A stretch of DNA of 23,011 nucleotides from Stephanodiscus triporus (Eukaryota > Bacillariophyta > Thalassiosirophyceae > Thalassiosirales > Thalassiosiraceae): contig JALLAZ010000435.1 in the NCBI GenBank assembly GCA_036939755.1, positions 1 to 23,011 on the forward strand, written 5' to 3'. A program made the translations under genes and the position numbers. Positions 7,689-18,462 of this stretch are shown here, in pieces; position 1 is the stretch's first letter; every line of letters starts with the position of its first letter. The notes under the pieces are model-generated. The model was not told the origin of the DNA. It searched no databases and worked only from the letters and a program-made list of their open reading frames with translations.

Positions 7689-7817
7689 TAAGCGGCAAAC
7701 TGATTCCTATGCGAAAAGCTACAGGGAGATTTTTTACATACAGAGGAGATTTTTTTTCGTAGGGTGTGTAAAAAATCTCCGATGATGTAAAAGTGGCAAT
7801 TGAATGGAAATCTGTAG
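7689..7817 (-). repeat. Right TIR of the 3.26 kb element, with three subterminal motifs
   Basis: Inverted partner of 4556-4685. The 13-base motif is at 7725-7737 (direct), 7745-7757 (direct, degenerate 3' end) and 7768-7780 (inverted). Number, spacing and orientation mirror the left arm. The arm lies about 230 bp upstream of the importin start codon, so it is likely part of, or next to, that promoter. Confidence 0.85.
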
Positions 7818-8050
7818 TAATGCGTCCAGAAGCGTCGTACGCACGTAGAATACCATCGTCGGAATTTCATATCTTGACCGGACGATGGACAGACACTACT
7901 ACTCTATTCCCCACCCCGCGCCAGCACCGTTCATCTTTTTGTTCACTTCTCTCCGAAAAAAAATGCGTTTGTTCCACCTTCTTCGCGCTAAACTCGTGCT
8001 CATTATTTATGGTAAATAATATTGTCGGAGATAAATTTACTTGTCGAACC

Positions 8051-11000
8051 ATGGCAGTATCTCTATCATCCGACGCCGCCCAGATGGCTACATACCTCTC
8101 CGGCCTCACCCAGCCAGACACGCTCATCATTAGGCAGGCGGAGGTAGAGCTCAAGCCGATACTCAAGAGGCCGGGATGCGTCCCGGCAATGATCGAGGTG
8201 ATCAAGGCCCAGGGCTCGCAGGAGGAGGCGACGCGACACGTGGCCGCGATCGTTCTCCGGAAGAGGATCGCCGGACACCTAGGCAGGTTCGACGGCCCGA
8301 CCAAGGCCGCGCTGAAGGGCGAGCTCCTGGCGATACTGCGGACGGAGAACTCGAGGCCGGTGCGCAACGGCGTCGTGGCCCTCGTCGCCGCGGTCTGCAA
8401 GTCGGAGGCCGAGAACGAGGGGGACGAGGCCCAGGCCGCGGCGGGATGGCCGGAGCTGTTCCAATTCGTGGCCGGCGCCGCGGGAGACGCCCACCCGGAG
8501 GCGCGCGAATTGGCCTTCCTCCTTCTGGGGGAGATGACCGACACTGTGGGGGTGCATCTCAAGCCGCAATTCGGGACGCTGGCGGGACTTTTCGGGGCCG
8601 GGTTGTCGGACGGGGATGCCAAGGTCCAGAGCGCGAGCGTCAAGGCGCTGGGCCTGCTGATGAGCTACCTGGCAGACGAGGAGGAGATCGACACCTTCGC
8701 GCCCCTGATCTCTCCGCTGCTGGTCGTGGCGGAGGCGTGTCGCGCGCGCAACGACGAGGAGGTGGTGTCCACCTTCCTCGACGTGCTCTACGACCTGAGC
8801 TTCAGCCCAAGCCAGGTCGTGGCGAAGCACATGGCGCCCATTGTGAGATTCGCGCTGATTTGCATGGCAGATTCCAATCTGGAAATTGCCGTCCGCGATT
8901 CGGCCGCGCTTGTGGTTGCGACCATGGCCGAGTCGAAGCCCAAACTCCTGGGGAGGGACGCGGCTCTCCTCGCGGGCGTGGTCGAGACGATTTTCAACCT
9001 TATCGAGAACTCCGACGGGTCGGCGGCGGGGGCGCTGTTCGAATCCAATCCCGCGTGGAAGGAGGACTTCCAGGATCAGGAGGGGTACGATCCGGACGCG
9101 GACGATAACGGCGGGATCACCGAAACGGGCATAGCGCAGGGTACGCTCGACATGCTCGCGTGCGAGATACCCAAGAAGTACATTTTCGAGCCGGTCGTTG
9201 GCCGGTGCATGGCCCGGCTGGGGAGCGCGGATCCCAATCAGCGCAAGGCGGGAATAGCGTGCCTGGGGGTGATCGCCGAGGGATGCGCAGAACCCCTTAG
9301 GGAAAACCTGGCGCAGGTCATGCCCCACGTGTTCCAGACCGCGGCTGATTCCGACGCCAGGGTCAGGGAGTGCGCGTGCTTCGCCTTGGGGCAGATCAGC
9401 GAGCACTGCCAGCCGGAGGTATTGAGCTACTCGAGTCAGATATTGCCCATCGTATTCGCGTTGTTGGACGACGACAACATCGCGGTGCAGGCCACTAGTT
9501 GCTACGTCCTCGAGATGTTTTGTGAACGCCTCGAGCCCGACGGCGTCCGACCGCTGCTCGACCCCCTGGTTCGCAAATTGGCCTCAATGCTTGAGGGTAC
9601 GAGCAAGAGGTCGGTGCAGGAGATGACGGTCGCTGCGTTGGCGGCCACGGCAGTTGCAGCCGAGGAGGAGTTCGCGCCGTACGTCGTGGGGGTGGCGACG
9701 TTGATGGCCAAGCTCATGGAGCTGAAGGAGGAGAAGACGTACTCTCTAAGGGGGAGGGCGCTGGAGTGCATGGGACACATCGCCATCGCTGTCGGGAAGG
9801 AGCACTTCCGTCCGTACTTCGCATTGACCATGCAGTGCGCGTGCGAGGGGTTGACGTTCGATTCGACGGACCTGCACGAGTTCGCGTACGCTCTGTTCGC
9901 CAACCTCGCCAAGGTGATGGGGGAGGAGTTCGCGCCCGTTTTGGTGGAGCTGGTGCCGCATCTGGTCACGGTCATTTCGCAGGACGAGGGTCAGTTTGAG
10001 CAGGCCGAAGAGGAGCAGGTGAGAAGACAATTTTTTATCCTTGAATATGCTCCTCAACACCATTGACTTGTTTTGTCTCATTCGATTGTTTTGTCCACAC
10101 TGCGTTCTCTCTCTCTCTTTGTTCATCTATCTATCTATCTATCTTTCTTTCTCTCTCTCTGTCACTCTCTCAGGGCGGTCAATTCAAAGCCCTAGACGAT
10201 TCCGATGAGGAGGACGACGAGGGGGGAAACCTGATAATGCATATTCGCACCGCCCTCCTCGAGACGAAGAAGGGTGCCATAACGGCCCTCGGAGAGATGG
10301 CCGCGCACACCGGATCCGCCTTCGTCCCTTTCATGGGCGAGGTCATGACGGTTCTGATGAAGGCTGCAGATAATTGGCACCCGCTCATTAAGACGGAGGT
10401 TGCCGATGCCATGTCGAGTCTGATCGTGCCTTGCGTAGCCCAGGATCATGGTGGTGAGATATCATGGGAGAAGGGAGATATTTCTGGACCCAGTCCCCTG
10501 AGTGCCAATACCGCGCAGGCGGTGGCGATCATACTCAAGGCATTGGTGAACATGATGAAGGACGAGACAAAGGATGTGGTCGGGAAGGCATGCGAAAGCG
10601 TCCAATCCGTCATTGAGCTCTGTGGTCCTCACGCTCTCGCGACAGTGGCGAACGACTGTCTGGAAACCACCTATGCCATCCTCGCGAAGGAGGCGCCGTG
10701 TCAGCAGACAGATGACTATGGAGAGGACTTTGGCGACGAGGACGACGATGATCACGACTCCTTCATGACTTCGGTATGCGACCTCGTGGGAGCCTTCGGC
10801 CGTGTTATGGGTCCGCACTTTGTGCAGTACCTACCCAAATTCCTCCCCGTAATCTGCGCATACGCCAAGCCGTCACGCCCGCCCAGCGACCGGTCCATGG
10901 CTATTGGCTGCCTTGGTGAGCTCGCGCAGGAGTTGGAGGGCGGCATCGCCGAACACTGGTCGGCGGTCTTCTACCCTGCCGCTATTGCTGGCCTCGCAGA

Positions 11001-12660: not shown

Positions 12661-12722
12661 AGGTCATCATTGAAGAGGGATGATGTATGATGTAGTTAGG
12701 CTATGATTTTTTTAGACCGATA

Positions 12723-13044
12723 TTATCTGGGCATTGTTAACTGGCGCACTGGGGCCTCGCGCACGCTTTTTTTGGGGGGAGCTCAAAATCTAAATTTCCG
12801 CCAGCCAATTTTGGCAGCGCAGTAGAGGTACGATGGCAATTTCTCCTCCCCCCGCTGTCTGATCAGCCCGCCGGTGGTGTCGAATGAGCGCGCTTGATGC
12901 CGCACGTACGGGGACGCCTTTTTGCCGCTAACCGAATTTTTTGCCTCTCAATTACCATCCCCCCCCCCGCAGGACGCCAAAGCGACTCACCGCCACTCGA
13001 GGCTATTTTGCCCCCATTCTCCTCCCCCACGTTGAAATGCCCCC
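12723..13044 (+). repeat. Left 322-bp TIR of the Tc1-type element
   Basis: Inverted match to 14222-14543 from TTATCTGGGC through CACGTTGAAATGCCCC. It contains a C10 run near 12960, mirrored by a G run near 14300. The inner boundary is sharp: the two arms diverge immediately after the CCCC. Confidence 0.9.
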
Positions 13045-13087
13045 CGTTGACAACATTATCGCAGATCGCAGAGCATGGGGCACGGGA

Positions 13088-13889
13088 GAATGTGAATGGT
13101 GGTATTTTTATTCCCGGCGCCTCTTACGGCTACGAGAAGAAGCTCGAGGTCGCAGCTGCCTACCATCGTGGGCTGGAGATGAATCCTACGGCGACGATTA
13201 CTTCCATATCCCGGGAGTGCAAGGTCGGCCGAAAGTTCGTCAACAAAGTCCTGGAGGAGCTGAATGTGTACAGCAGGATTCTACTTCCAACGGAAATTGA
13301 GCGCGAGAAAAGGTGCACAAAGATATCTGGCTTCGCTGCCACTGTCATCCTTCGTCTTTACATGGAGGAGCCATGTCATTCGAAGCGCTCGTACCGGGAC
13401 CTGCTCTTTGTTTACACAGGGATTGTTGTTTCTTAAACGACAATCAATAATTTCTTTCTGCGTGTTCTTCCCTTCCAAGGTAGCATGGTGAAGCCAAACC
13501 TTGTTCTGCTGGACAAGTTCCGACCTGAAAATGTGGCCAACATGATTGAATTTGTAAACTTCATCATCATGGAACGGCCATGCAACATCAAGTGGGGAGA
13601 CAAAAAATTTTAAGGGGCAGGAGCTGTATTGTCGGAAGGTAAGGAGGAACCCGCTGACTGGAGAGATACCATCGGTCATCACCGATCCAGATTTCTGTAA
13701 CACGCACAACATCACCGGATTCTGCGGCATCGACATCCGCACAAATCGGAATGTGGAGGGGATCATGAACGACTCAAAAGTTTTTTTCATTCAATTGTCA
13801 ATGCAATAAACGATGGCTTTTTGCGTATTCCTGGATGTCCTTGTCCTCGGCAACTGGCACAAAGAGAACATCAGAATCCGCTGGCAAGG
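13088..13889 (+). pseudogene. Tc1/IS630-like DDE transposase, inactivated
   Basis: The N-terminal part holds a helix-turn-helix region (AAAYHRGLEMNPTATITSIS, then RECKVGRKFVNKVLEEL), followed by YMEEPCHSKRSYRDLLFVYT and, past an in-frame TAA at 13434-13436, NFFLRVLPFQGSMVKPNLVL and DKFRPENVANMIEF. This order is that of IS630/Tc1 transposases in algae. A one-base shift near 13611 (stop TAA 13611-13613) leads to ELYCRKVRRNPLTGEIPSVI and NITGFCGIDIRTNRNVEG. Another shift near 13830 leads to DVLVLGNWHKEN. The first Asp is plausibly the D in KWGDKK; the second, expected in VLVLDNA, is Gly with neighbouring residues deleted. The C-terminal Glu region is not recognisable. No native start codon was identified. 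The gene product cannot be active. Confidence 0.85.
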
Positions 13890-14221
13890 AGAGGAGAGTC
13901 GCTGCATGAGCACCGCAACCATCTGAAGCCTGTGGACAAGGACCCACCGCTCCTTCCAATGACGTAGATCCTGACGGAGCGGCAATGGGACTCCCACGGT
14001 GATTGATACCGGCATGCGAGAGGATTGTCTCATCAAGCTCATGCGCCTCATAAACCCAAGGGGGTCAGTTGTCATAGAGCCGGAGTTTGTAATGTTGTCC
14101 ATCTCCCTGGATCCCTGGTGCTTCCATTTGGCGGCATTAGCTAAGAGATGGCGCTCACCAGGCTCGATGTGCACAGTCCTAGCAAGATTGCAAAGGAGTT
14201 TTTGTTCCCACTCATCAGATT
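13890..14221. other. Unassigned interior of the Tc1-type element
   Basis: These 330 bases should encode the transposase C-terminus (third catalytic residue), but I find no matching block in any frame. Open frames exist on both strands; the minus-strand one (13791-14435) runs into the TIR and has no recognisable content. The stretch may be replaced or heavily decayed sequence. Confidence 0.5.
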
Positions 14222-14543
14222 GGGGCATTTCAACGTGGGGGAGGAGAATGGGGGCAAAATAGCCTCGAGCGGCGGTGAGTCGCTTTGGCGTCCTGCGGGG
14301 GGGGGGGATGGTAATTGAGAGGCAAAAAAAATTGGTTAGCGGCAAAAAAGGCATCCCCGTACGCGCGGCATCAAGCGCGCTCATTCGACACCACCGGCGG
14401 GCTGATCCGACAGAGGGGAGAGGAGAAATGGCCATCCTACCTCTACTGTGCTGCCAAAATTGGCCGGTGGAAATTCAGATTTGGAGCTCCGAAAAAAAAA
14501 GCACACGCGAGGCCCCAGTGCCCCAGTTAAAACGCCCAGATAA
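14222..14543 (-). repeat. Right 322-bp TIR of the Tc1-type element
   Basis: Partner of 12723-13044, reading GGGGCATTTCAACGTGGG outward to GCCCAGATAA. A long open frame runs through it into the Harbinger zinc-finger gene, but only because the insertion lacks stops in that frame. Confidence 0.9.
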
Positions 14544-14545
14544 TA

Positions 14546-14630
14546 ACAGATACATGGATACACAAAAGAACAGTCGGGAACAATTTTTTTCGGATGACGG
14601 CTTTTGTGTATCATGTGTGTATTTGTCTGT
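14546..14630 (+). repeat. Distal part of the Harbinger left TIR
   Basis: Continues the left TIR interrupted at 12722. It contains ATACACAAAAGAACAGTCG (14559-14577) and the internal inverted partner CTTTTGTGTATC (14601-14612), so each Harbinger end is itself partly palindromic. The same ATACACAAAAGAACAGTCG string is in the right arm at 18370-18388. Confidence 0.8.
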
Positions 14631-14808
14631 TTTTGCCCCATGTTTTCATTGCCACATCGCCCGCAGATGCGCAGATGGCAGCTTCTGGGTCATGCCCACC
14701 TCCCATTTATTTGAGGTCACCTGTGCTCCCGACGGCACCGAGTTGACATCAACAAAGGTGGTAAAGCTCTCACGACGATATAGTCGTCTCAAGAAAAAAA
14801 TATCCACC

Positions 14809-16438
14809 ATGGCTGACCCGTCGCCCGACGGGTGGACCTGCCCTGACTGCAGTTACACCAAGATCATCGATTGCTCTCGCTGCGCCATGTGCGACACGCC
14901 GCAACCCAAGGGTAGTTGCTCCGTTTTGCCCGTCGATAAAAATTCGACTCACCTTGCCGCCATTGCAGCGTGGCATCAAGGACAACCTCCAAAGGCGACC
15001 AGGGCGAGGTCAGCTCGTTTGGCTGCTCCTGTTGCACCACGTGAATCTCCTTCGTGTGGTGCAAAGGTTAAGGCAAATGAGAGGATCGCCGCCCAGCTTG
15101 CCCAGCGCACCCCCATGCCTGTGGCAGAGGTGTTGCATTCCCCTGTCTCTTCCCCTGATGGTCCTTTGGTCCCCCCTCCTGCTGTTACACGAGCTGACAC
15201 CGGCGCGGGGCTAGGGGATGATGAGGATTCATTGTCCAACAATGACGGTTCCCCACCTCGCCCTTCACACAATGTTGGGCGCAAGACAACGGGTTTGGAT
15301 GCTAGTCCAAATGATTTGCCTGCATTTGTTATGGTCTGATGTTGACGATGATATTATCCGGACCGATGGAGAGGTCAGTAAGTATTCTTTTTTTCAGCGT
15401 TTGATTCATTACATACACGGGTAGGTGATCGATCAACAAAACCGAAAGGCAGTTGAGCTTGCGCTTTTGGTCAAAATGGGCACAAAGGTGTGCAATATCG
15501 ATATGGACCCAATGAAGAAGGCAACATGCAAGCAGGTCTTGCATCGTAAGTATGTTGAAATTATAAAAAAGCTTGAGGACAGGATTTGACAATTCGTGTC
15601 GATATGGTGACAATGTTTAAGGGCGATAAGGCTAGGCAGGGACTTAGCGGTGCAAACTTGCTCCGAAAGCTTGAACAAGAGATGACCGAGGTCCGTAAGT
15701 TTGCCGTTAAGTTCCCTGGTTTCAACAACCCCTTGGGGCTGCCCAGCGGTCTCACTCAGCTGCGAGACATGAAGGCGCCCGTGGTGGCTAAGTTGTGGAA
15801 GATGAAATTTCTGGTAATGTCTTTTTGATTGATACTTTGTCGTTGCATTATCTTCTGAGCGTTTGTTGACTATGTCTTCTTTTTCACAGAATGACCAGAT
15901 GTTGATTACAACGATGTCCAATCCATCATGCAACATGTTCCGAAGCAGTGGTGGCTTGAGCATGAATTATGTAAGTATATTCTTACAATCCTCGTCCACA
16001 AGCTCGTCAAGTCCCACGAGACTTCCACCAGGTGATACTCACAAGGATGCGAGGGAGAAGAAGGTGAAGGAGTTGGCTGATGTTCGTATGGCTGCAAAAG
16101 CAGAGCGCCCAGTAGAGAAGAACGGTGATGTTGACCATCAGATGAAGAAGGTGCGCGTCGACGGGATGCGCTCACAGGTAGAGAAAAATATCGTCAAATT
16201 GATTTTGTCGCAAATCAATGGCATGCATGACAACGTGGAGATATACAAATCTATTTTGGGGGAGAAAAAATATTGTGACAAAATTGCACAGCTCATGAAT
16301 AAACTGCTGGGCTTGGGCAACAACAATGTTGGCGATGGTGTGACTGCTTGTGTGCCGGAGGTGGTTTTGACTTTGACTTCGTCGGCAGGCAATGATGACG
16401 ATGAAGGGAACTATGGAACTGATGGAACTTATTCTTAG
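14809..16438 (+). pseudogene. Harbinger-borne accessory gene with RanBP2-type zinc finger, apparently frameshifted
   Basis: ATG 14809 (ACCATGG context) begins MADPSPDGWTCPDCSYTK. W9 with C11, C14, C25 and C28 fits the W-x-C-x2-C-x10-C-x2-C RanBP2/RBZ zinc finger. A Pro/Ser-rich linker follows to about 15330. A one-base shift then leads to SDVDDDIIRTDGE; a probable 51 bp intron (15374-15424) leads to VIDQQNRKAVELALLVKMG and MDPMKKATCKQVLHRKYVEI. A second shift near 15590 leads to FKGDKARQGLSGANLLRKLE and KFPGFNNPLGLPSGLTQLRD. A clear 76 bp intron (15814-15889, GTAATG...TTTTCACAG) leads to the last exon, which ends at TAG 16436-16438 and is Lys-rich with a helical tail (EKNIVKLILSQINGMHDN). It is convergent with the transposase inside the same TIRs, the position of the Myb/SANT partner in classic Harbinger elements, but I see no Myb/SANT or trihelix signature. 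The frameshifts could alternatively be sequencing errors. Confidence 0.6.
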
Positions 16439-16457
16439 ATTGTTATGTTTGACTTAT

Positions 16458-16649
16458 TGTTTCCCTGGGCATGGGAGAGGACCCAATGGAAGGGTGGTAG
16501 GGGGGTCCTCATTTTTTAATTAGTTACTTAATGTAATCCTTTAAAGCAATGCATTAAGTACGACTAATTATTGAATTAACTAATTAAAAATGAGGACCCC
16601 CCTACCACCCTGCCATTACTTGGGTCCTCTCCCATGCCCGGGGAAACAA
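16458..16649. repeat. Long near-perfect inverted repeat between the two convergent Harbinger genes
   Basis: The left arm (16458-16528) holds CCTGGGCATGGGAGAGGACC and GGGTGGTAGGGGGGTCCTCA. The right arm (16575-16649) is its reverse complement with few mismatches and a 3-4 base gap. Arms of about 70 bp surround an AT-rich loop of about 46 bp. It begins 20 bp after the accessory-gene stop and ends 25 bp before the transposase stop. It could be a bidirectional 3'-end structure or a small MITE inside the element. Confidence 0.85.
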
Positions 16650-16673
16650 AGTGATTTGAGAAACAAAAACAAG

Positions 16674-18238
16674 CTAGGCTGCAATTGGCCTGTTCTGACA
16701 AAATACGCGCAGATGCCTCGCCAACAGTGCCCTCCGTTTCCCAAATTGGATCGCTAGAAACTTCTCCGTCCTCTTGTTAACATCAATTGATGTATGCCTG
16801 CTCAGCCACAAACCATCATCACTGATGAGATACTCCCTCCCAACCCGAACATCCATTTACTCCATTTGGTCATGAAGGAAGTTGTGTAGGCATGCGCACG
16901 CCACAAGTATTTTTTCGCACTTTCCAATGTCCTGATAAAACAGACCGTTGTTGAGTATTCACCACCTGTTCTTCAATATCCCAAAAGTACACTCAACAAC
17001 CTTGTGGAGAAGTAACCCTACAGCATGGTCTTGTCCGCACTCTTGTATGGACAAATTGATTGAGGCCAACGCAAATAACCATTGTCACAAATGAGATACA
17101 TACCCCTCTCTTCCCTGACCCCCCCTCCAGCCATGTAATAACGCCACATAATGTCCTTCATCCATCCCTTATAAATTGTCCGTACATTTGTGTCGATCTT
17201 GACGATATGCTTGTCATTGAAGGTGCCAAACAGTGGCCCATAAATGCCGAGAATGCGCCGATTGAAATCGGTGATGCATTGAAATGCAAGCGTCGGGTAT
17301 CCCTCCTTCCCCTTTGCTCGATTAAGGTTGCCTGTCGGACAACAAGCAGACCATCTCACATGGACAACATCCATGGATCCACAAGCACCTGGAAGACCAA
17401 CATCTTCGTAGAAATGCGTCACACTCTTCAACTCGGTGATATTTTCAGGAAGCGCGATGTACTCACCTCTCATATCCATGAATGCATCGAGAAACACAAA
17501 GAAAAACTTGTGAACCTCCATGTGCTGATATGAGTCAATGCCCTCAACGAGCGGAAATGCGCCCCATGGCCCAAAATGTACAGACATCATCAAAGAATTC
17601 ATCTCTGTGCATCAACGACCTTGGATGCTGTATGTACCCACGGGCGATAAGTCTGCAGGTCAGTTCCTCAACCTTTGCAAGGGACATCCGAAACCAATGG
17701 CAAAATTTGCCAAATCTATTGGACAAAGAAAGGTCGTGGGTCTTATCGCGCGTCTGCCCCGGCTTCAAGAAGTTGATGTACCAGCACGATGTCAAAACAG
17801 ATTGAATACGATGGTGTCGGTTTGGCCAACGAGGACACCGGCGTTGATGCCTACGACGTCGGCCGGCCACATAGCCCTCAACAGAAAAACCACAAGAAAC
17901 ACCATCATATTCATACAAACCTGACAAATTATCACCACTCTCGTCGAAGCGGGAGAAATCAGCACCAAAATCGAAGCCAAAGTCGATGTCCATCATAAAT
18001 TCCGATGAAAAATCATGAAGACCAAAGAAATCGGGGGGAGGGGGGAAGTCAACTGCACCGGCGGTAGAAAAATTGACCAAAGGGGATGGCAGGAGGGAGA
18101 TGGAGGAAGCAAGGGAGGTGGAAGAGTTGTGTTGTGTCGGGGGAAGTGTATCCTCTCAGAGGAAGATGGCCTTCCCGCCAGAGGAAAAATCCCAGACAAA
18201 TCCGGATGTGTGTATTTGTACACATCACAAATAGCCAT
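16674..18238 (-). pseudogene. PIF/Harbinger (DDE_Tnp_4-type) transposase, inactivated
   Basis: Probable start at ATG 18238 (MAICDVYKYTHPDLSG). A frameshift near 18155 leads to an acidic N-terminus, then RFGKFCHWFRMSLAKVEEL, typical of the family's helical region. A shift near 17560 leads to PLVEGIDSYQHMEVHKFFF and GLPGACGSMDVVHVRW, the first catalytic Asp block. LICDNGYLRWPQSICPYK carries the second Asp. A shift near 17035 leads to HKVVECTFGILKNRW with the catalytic Glu. In-frame TGA (16961-16959) and TAA (16859-16857) follow before the last part, DDGLWLSRHTSIDVNKRTEK, ends at TAG 16676. All three catalytic residues survive, but at least three frameshifts and two stops make the copy dead. It acted by cutting and pasting the flanking TIRs at TTA/TAA sites. 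Confidence 0.9.
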
Positions 18239-18359
18239 TCCACGTGGAGGGATTATTTGTGCGGAAAGCCAAACAAAACAAATAAACAAATAGGTCTGGT
18301 CATTTTGTAGCATTTATTCGTGTATCTGTTCAATCAAAACACCTTTTTGGCCCTTCCTG

Positions 18360-18459
18360 ACAGAACAAATACACAAAAGAACAGTCGTGAACAAAAAAAA
18401 GCTTCGCACCGCGTTTTGTATATTTGCGTATCTGCGTACTGGTCTAAAAAATCACAGCC
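18360..18459 (-). repeat. Harbinger right TIR
   Basis: Inverted partner of 12699-12722 plus 14546-14630. It ends CACAGCC next to TTA. It is diverged from the left arm more than the two Tc1 arms are from each other, which fits an older insertion. Confidence 0.85.
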
Positions 18460-18462
18460 TTA

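Follow-up and report, generated by a model that had tools for sequence, protein, structure and literature searches.

Harbinger-like elements have been reported from Thalassiosira pseudonana (PMC2806351, PMC3155517, in the portions that deal with them) and, together with Ping/Pong of rice and MtPH of Medicago truncatula, belong to the PIF/Harbinger superfamily, whose members are described as having a Plant_tran/DDE_Tnp_4 transposase, a second gene, short terminal inverted repeats (TIRs) and a TTA or TAA duplication of the target (PMC2213677, PMC2836001). The protein encoded by the second gene, ORF1, is described with a Myb-like domain, and mutation of that domain abolished excision in yeast, in the part of the work that concerns ORF1 (PMC2836001). 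Moreover, nested transposon insertions are in print for the PIF/Harbinger-like elements of Medicago truncatula (PMC2213677). The window, that is, the whole stretch of 23,011 nucleotides analysed here, lies on contig C433 of the genome searched (21.65 Mb, 1324 contigs). It includes an importin gene (7772-10066), for which the best organism-named match among the best 120 of 242 rows is Thalassiosira profunda (87%), on which basis the host is taken as a thalassiosiroid diatom, and, at 1373-2923, a gene for an Ion_trans domain protein (2.2e-12), by appearance an ordinary host gene. It also holds a PIF/Harbinger-like element (12699-18459) into whose left end, 24 bp from the terminus, a Tc1-type element of 1821 bp (12723-14543) is inserted. 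The older, Harbinger element has the transposase type, the 3-bp TTA/TAA duplication, the short TIRs (about 20 bp, with a single mismatch and a single gap) and the second gene of its superfamily. We favour, with a probability of about 0.96, an order of events in which a two-gene PIF/Harbinger element, its transposase and accessory genes convergent, would have inserted at TTA; a Tc1/mariner-type element with inverted repeats of about 322 bp would later have entered, by the cut-and-paste mechanism that the two superfamilies suggest, at a TA ending 24 bp inside the Harbinger left end, so that the terminus was split and the TA became duplicated; and both elements would afterwards have decayed. The locus holds two elements of known kinds, both dead, one nested in the other in the ordinary way, and this description is correct at the level of the single base.

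Table 1. Features of the two nested elements, with their positions in the window
Feature	Position	Strand	Evidence
TTA target duplication, left	12696..12698	.	Sequence; TTA or TAA after 15/21 family right ends
Harbinger left terminus, first 24 bp	12699..12722	+	Matches right end and left ends of other copies
TA target duplication of Tc1-type insert, left copy	12721..12722	.	Sequence, joined-end alignment, sister copies
Tc1-type left long TIR	12723..13043	+	Repeat search, alignment
Tc1-type transposase remnant, putative N-terminal part, open frame	12888..13436	+	HTH-like by eye only; without Pfam match
Tc1-type transposase, DDE-region fragment	13612..13776	+	Similarity to C488 paralogue; without Pfam match itself
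Tc1-type right long TIR	14222..14543	-	Repeat search, alignment
TA target duplication, right copy	14544..14545	.	Sequence, joined-end alignment, sister copies
Harbinger left end, continuation	14546..14630	+	Aligned to copies at C841 (2), C1309, C107, C880, C1189, C1322
Accessory gene 5' part, from conserved ATG	14809..15339	+	RanBP2-type Zn-finger motif; PF00641 unmatched by window frame
Accessory gene 3' part	15833..16438	+	Similar to C1309 copy by tblastn
Palindrome separating the convergent Harbinger genes	16457..16649	.	Repeat search, copy comparison
Harbinger transposase, disrupted by frame changes and stops	16695..18215	-	Plant_tran 1.1e-8; tblastn
Harbinger right end	18360..18459	-	Genome search, end alignment, family right ends
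TTA target duplication, right	18460..18462	.	Sequence, family right ends

The boundaries of both elements can be read from the sequence. The Harbinger element is bordered by TTA, its left edge reading GTAG-TTA-GGCTATGATTTTTTTAGACCGATA and its right edge GGTCTAAAAAATCACAGCC-TTA-GAG, and the Tc1-type insert is bordered by TA (TA-TTATCTGGGC...GCCCAGATAA-TA). A repeat search independently gives an outer pair at 12698-12712 and 18446-18460, a pair at the insert edges (12721-12735 and 14531-14545) and the long inverted repeats of the insert. The coordinates, the target duplications (TTA outside, TA inside) and the junction proposed in an initial annotation of this DNA are all as described, both by sequence and by alignment. 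That annotation also had the left TIR restored when the insert and one TA are removed and 12722 is joined to 14546; indeed, the joined left end (12699-12722 plus 14546-14660) aligns with the reverse complement of the right end with a local score of 42, against only 28 for the unjoined left end and a mean of 17.3 and a maximum of 32 for 1000 first-order Markov sequences modelled on the joined piece. The similarity between the two ends is strong only across the first 20 bp or so and a few bases thereafter, and is patchy beyond. Sister copies that lack the interruption support the junction more strongly than this end-to-end similarity.

Searching the genome with 14546-18459 produced 55 matches, and with the right end 21, the window itself included in both counts. 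Harbinger copies with an uninterrupted left end, predicted by the initial annotation to show 12722 fused to 14546, are present: seven of the eight family left ends that were aligned cross the junction, and six of the eight (C841b, C1309, C107, C880, C1189 and C1322) score best with exactly one TA kept. The left end of C841a crosses the junction with a gap close by, one TA tying with two, and that of C1193 is uninformative, its local alignment beginning past the junction. C1309, C1189 and C1322 read GATA|ACA, the same target letters as in the window. A ninth left end (L058), outside the set of eight and more divergent, is also uninterrupted; two further matches (L057 and L059), with no recognisable terminus, were excluded from the left-end count. 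On contig C841, two Harbinger copies share one orientation and are separated by about 1.4 kb (L055, C841:2500-12300). The Tc1-type insert is absent from all eight aligned sister left ends, which speaks against regarding the two elements as one composite, with the long inverted repeats forming part of the Harbinger end. A single open frame does connect the insert's repeat with the accessory gene, but that gene starts at a conserved ATG of its own within the Harbinger element, and relatives of the insert are present elsewhere in the genome; such a composite is hardly credible.

TTA or TAA directly follows 15 of 21 family right ends (28 rows minus 7 left ends read backwards, with the triplets transcribed by hand); the other six are followed by TGA (three), TTG, TCG and TCA. 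Where both ends are readable, which is the case in six copies, the 3-bp flanks are identical in three (the window, C1309 and C648) and differ in three (C841a, C841b and C1193). We count both the mismatched triplets and the right ends without TTA or TAA against the favoured order of events. The copies at C107 and C93 were considered as halves of a single one, an idea dropped because their flanking triplets differ (TAA and TTA). These two copies and that at C880 stop at contig ends, so that repeats did break the assembly, and two loci might have been joined in the contig of the window as an assembly chimera. However, chance would then have to account for the exact TA at either edge of the insert as well as for the exact TTA outside, and the flanks are single-copy or nearly so: the right flank matches no second place in the genome and the left flank has one 75% partial match elsewhere. 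The flank search therefore gives no sign of a chimeric join, which we consider very unlikely.

The nesting implies that the Harbinger element is older than the Tc1-type insertion; it does not imply that the element already sat at this locus. Thus, the order first put forward, Harbinger first and Tc1-type later, stands for the elements but not strictly for this locus, where the Harbinger element was presumably already in place when struck. Alternatively, the Tc1-type element could have entered the Harbinger element elsewhere, and the two could then have moved to this site together, a scenario that the outer TTA duplication fits equally well. However, among the 19 genome matches listed for the insert (12723-14543, self included; at least 19 in all), only that of the window itself coincides with any of the listed Harbinger left ends, and transposition should be inefficient from a terminus interrupted after 24 bp. 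Transposition of the composite is thus improbable, and insertion into a Harbinger element resident at the locus is the reading that we retain.

That the insert is of the Tc1 type is supported by the TA duplication, by a match to a paralogue at C488 and by the TA|TTA of its relatives. The putative DDE-region fragment matches the C488 frame at 43% over 42 residues (E 1.4e-7), and the latter frame carries DDE_3 at 5.3e-11; the remnants in the window match zero Pfam families at E<=0.5, a further point that we count against the favoured reading, and the reading frame there is fragmented. Three relatives (C125, C960 and C653), which match the insert at 72-77% in parts, show TA|TTA at the corresponding place as judged by eye, which supports the insert edge. 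The inverted repeats of the insert align across 321 and 322 bases (91% by genome search). They differ more towards the outer edge, where each of five blocks has 41-47 of 50 identities, than at the inner one, where they are nearly identical (49 of 50 and 25 of 25 in the last two blocks); because the blocks are uneven and the repeats not clock-like, dating by terminal-repeat divergence was dropped. The relative at C125 (L064, C125:33500-36800) has long inverted repeats, 94% over 235 bases, that enclose a frame of 361 residues, coiled-coil-like by eye, with sub-threshold Pfam matches only, none of them to a transposase.

The Harbinger transposase of the window, when compared with the copy at C1309, is divided among several frames and contains in-frame stops. 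The C1309 copy (Plant_tran, 3.5e-10) serves as a yardstick and is itself not intact, its transposase being spread over two frames; the C841b copy (DDE_Tnp_4, 4.4e-11) reads in one frame through that frame-change point of C1309, and an intron is therefore not a good excuse for that point.

The accessory gene (ORF1) is conserved in the two C841 copies and in those at C1309 and C234. Its start codon, ATG 14809, lies in the context CCACCATGG, and an ATGG start is found at the corresponding place in both C841 copies and in C1309. In the window, the frame 14263-15339 has no stop codon over the 546 bases that precede this ATG and reaches into the insert's repeat; in C841b, the accessory frame closes 63 bases upstream of the ATG, and in C1309, where there is no insert, it continues open into the Harbinger end. 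The frame 14263-15339 is thus a chance extension, and the earlier view that a long open frame falsely links Tc1 TIR sequence to the accessory gene was right. The accessory protein has 38 database relatives, one of them with a precomputed PF00641 match; 31 of these were aligned with the C841b frame (n=32). The RanBP2-type motif W-x-C-x2-C-x(8-11)-C-x2-C occurs in 24 of the 32, the other eight being gapped at that place or starting downstream. PF00641 is matched by 12 of the 32 sequences; the accessory frame of the window has the motif and is not matched by PF00641. Neither Myb nor any family besides PF00641 is found in the 32 aligned sequences (Pfam, E<=0.1), and a limited keyword search of the literature found no report linking Harbinger to the RanBP2 zinc finger.

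The palindrome that separates the convergent genes has two pairs of arms, one of 30 and one of 32 bases, both 97% complementary. It is also complete in both C841 copies, and C1309, C234 and C1294 have the transposase-side arm only. We read the palindrome as a possible inverted duplication of the 3' flank of the transposase gene; loss of one arm in the single-arm copies is equally possible. A conserved GC-rich arm pattern occurs at eight places in the genome (none for the backwards control), and an arm is also found at C145 and C1227, in loci of 3.0 and 2.2 kb where the transposase and accessory frames have no tblastn match. Within a copy the arms agree at 59 of 62, 59 of 62 and 50 of 51 positions, and they may change together; the evidence is modest, because the arms of the window and those of C841b agree with one another at up to 60 of 62 positions. 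It is possible, if doubtful, that in a diatom Harbinger lineage the second protein would recognise DNA or partners by a RanBP2-type zinc finger instead of a Myb-like domain and, at the same time, that the two arms of the long palindrome between the convergent genes would be kept similar to each other in any one copy.

Through the nesting, two transposons of one diatom can be firmly ordered relative to each other, and the open frame shows how a chance frame across an element boundary could be misannotated as a gene; beyond these two points the nesting is ordinary, and the accessory zinc finger and the palindrome are more distinctive. In common with Tc1/mariner (IS630-Tc1) elements, the insert has the TA duplication and, in its C488 paralogue, DDE_3; it differs in that the window copy has long terminal repeats (about 322 bp, 91%) and a fragmented frame. 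The nests of Medicago truncatula are likewise made of a transposon inside a PIF/Harbinger-like element, but those that PMC2213677 describes in its account of nesting involve gypsy-like retrotransposons and an unidentified element with a 5-bp duplication, whereas here the inserted element is of the Tc1 type and lies in the terminus. With respect to PIF/Harbinger itself, ORF1 as presented in PMC2836001 is Myb-like, whereas the accessory proteins aligned here have the RanBP2-type motif in 24 of 32 cases and no Pfam Myb match. If the zinc-finger accessory protein does carry out DNA binding, it would represent a variant of the two-protein Harbinger system.
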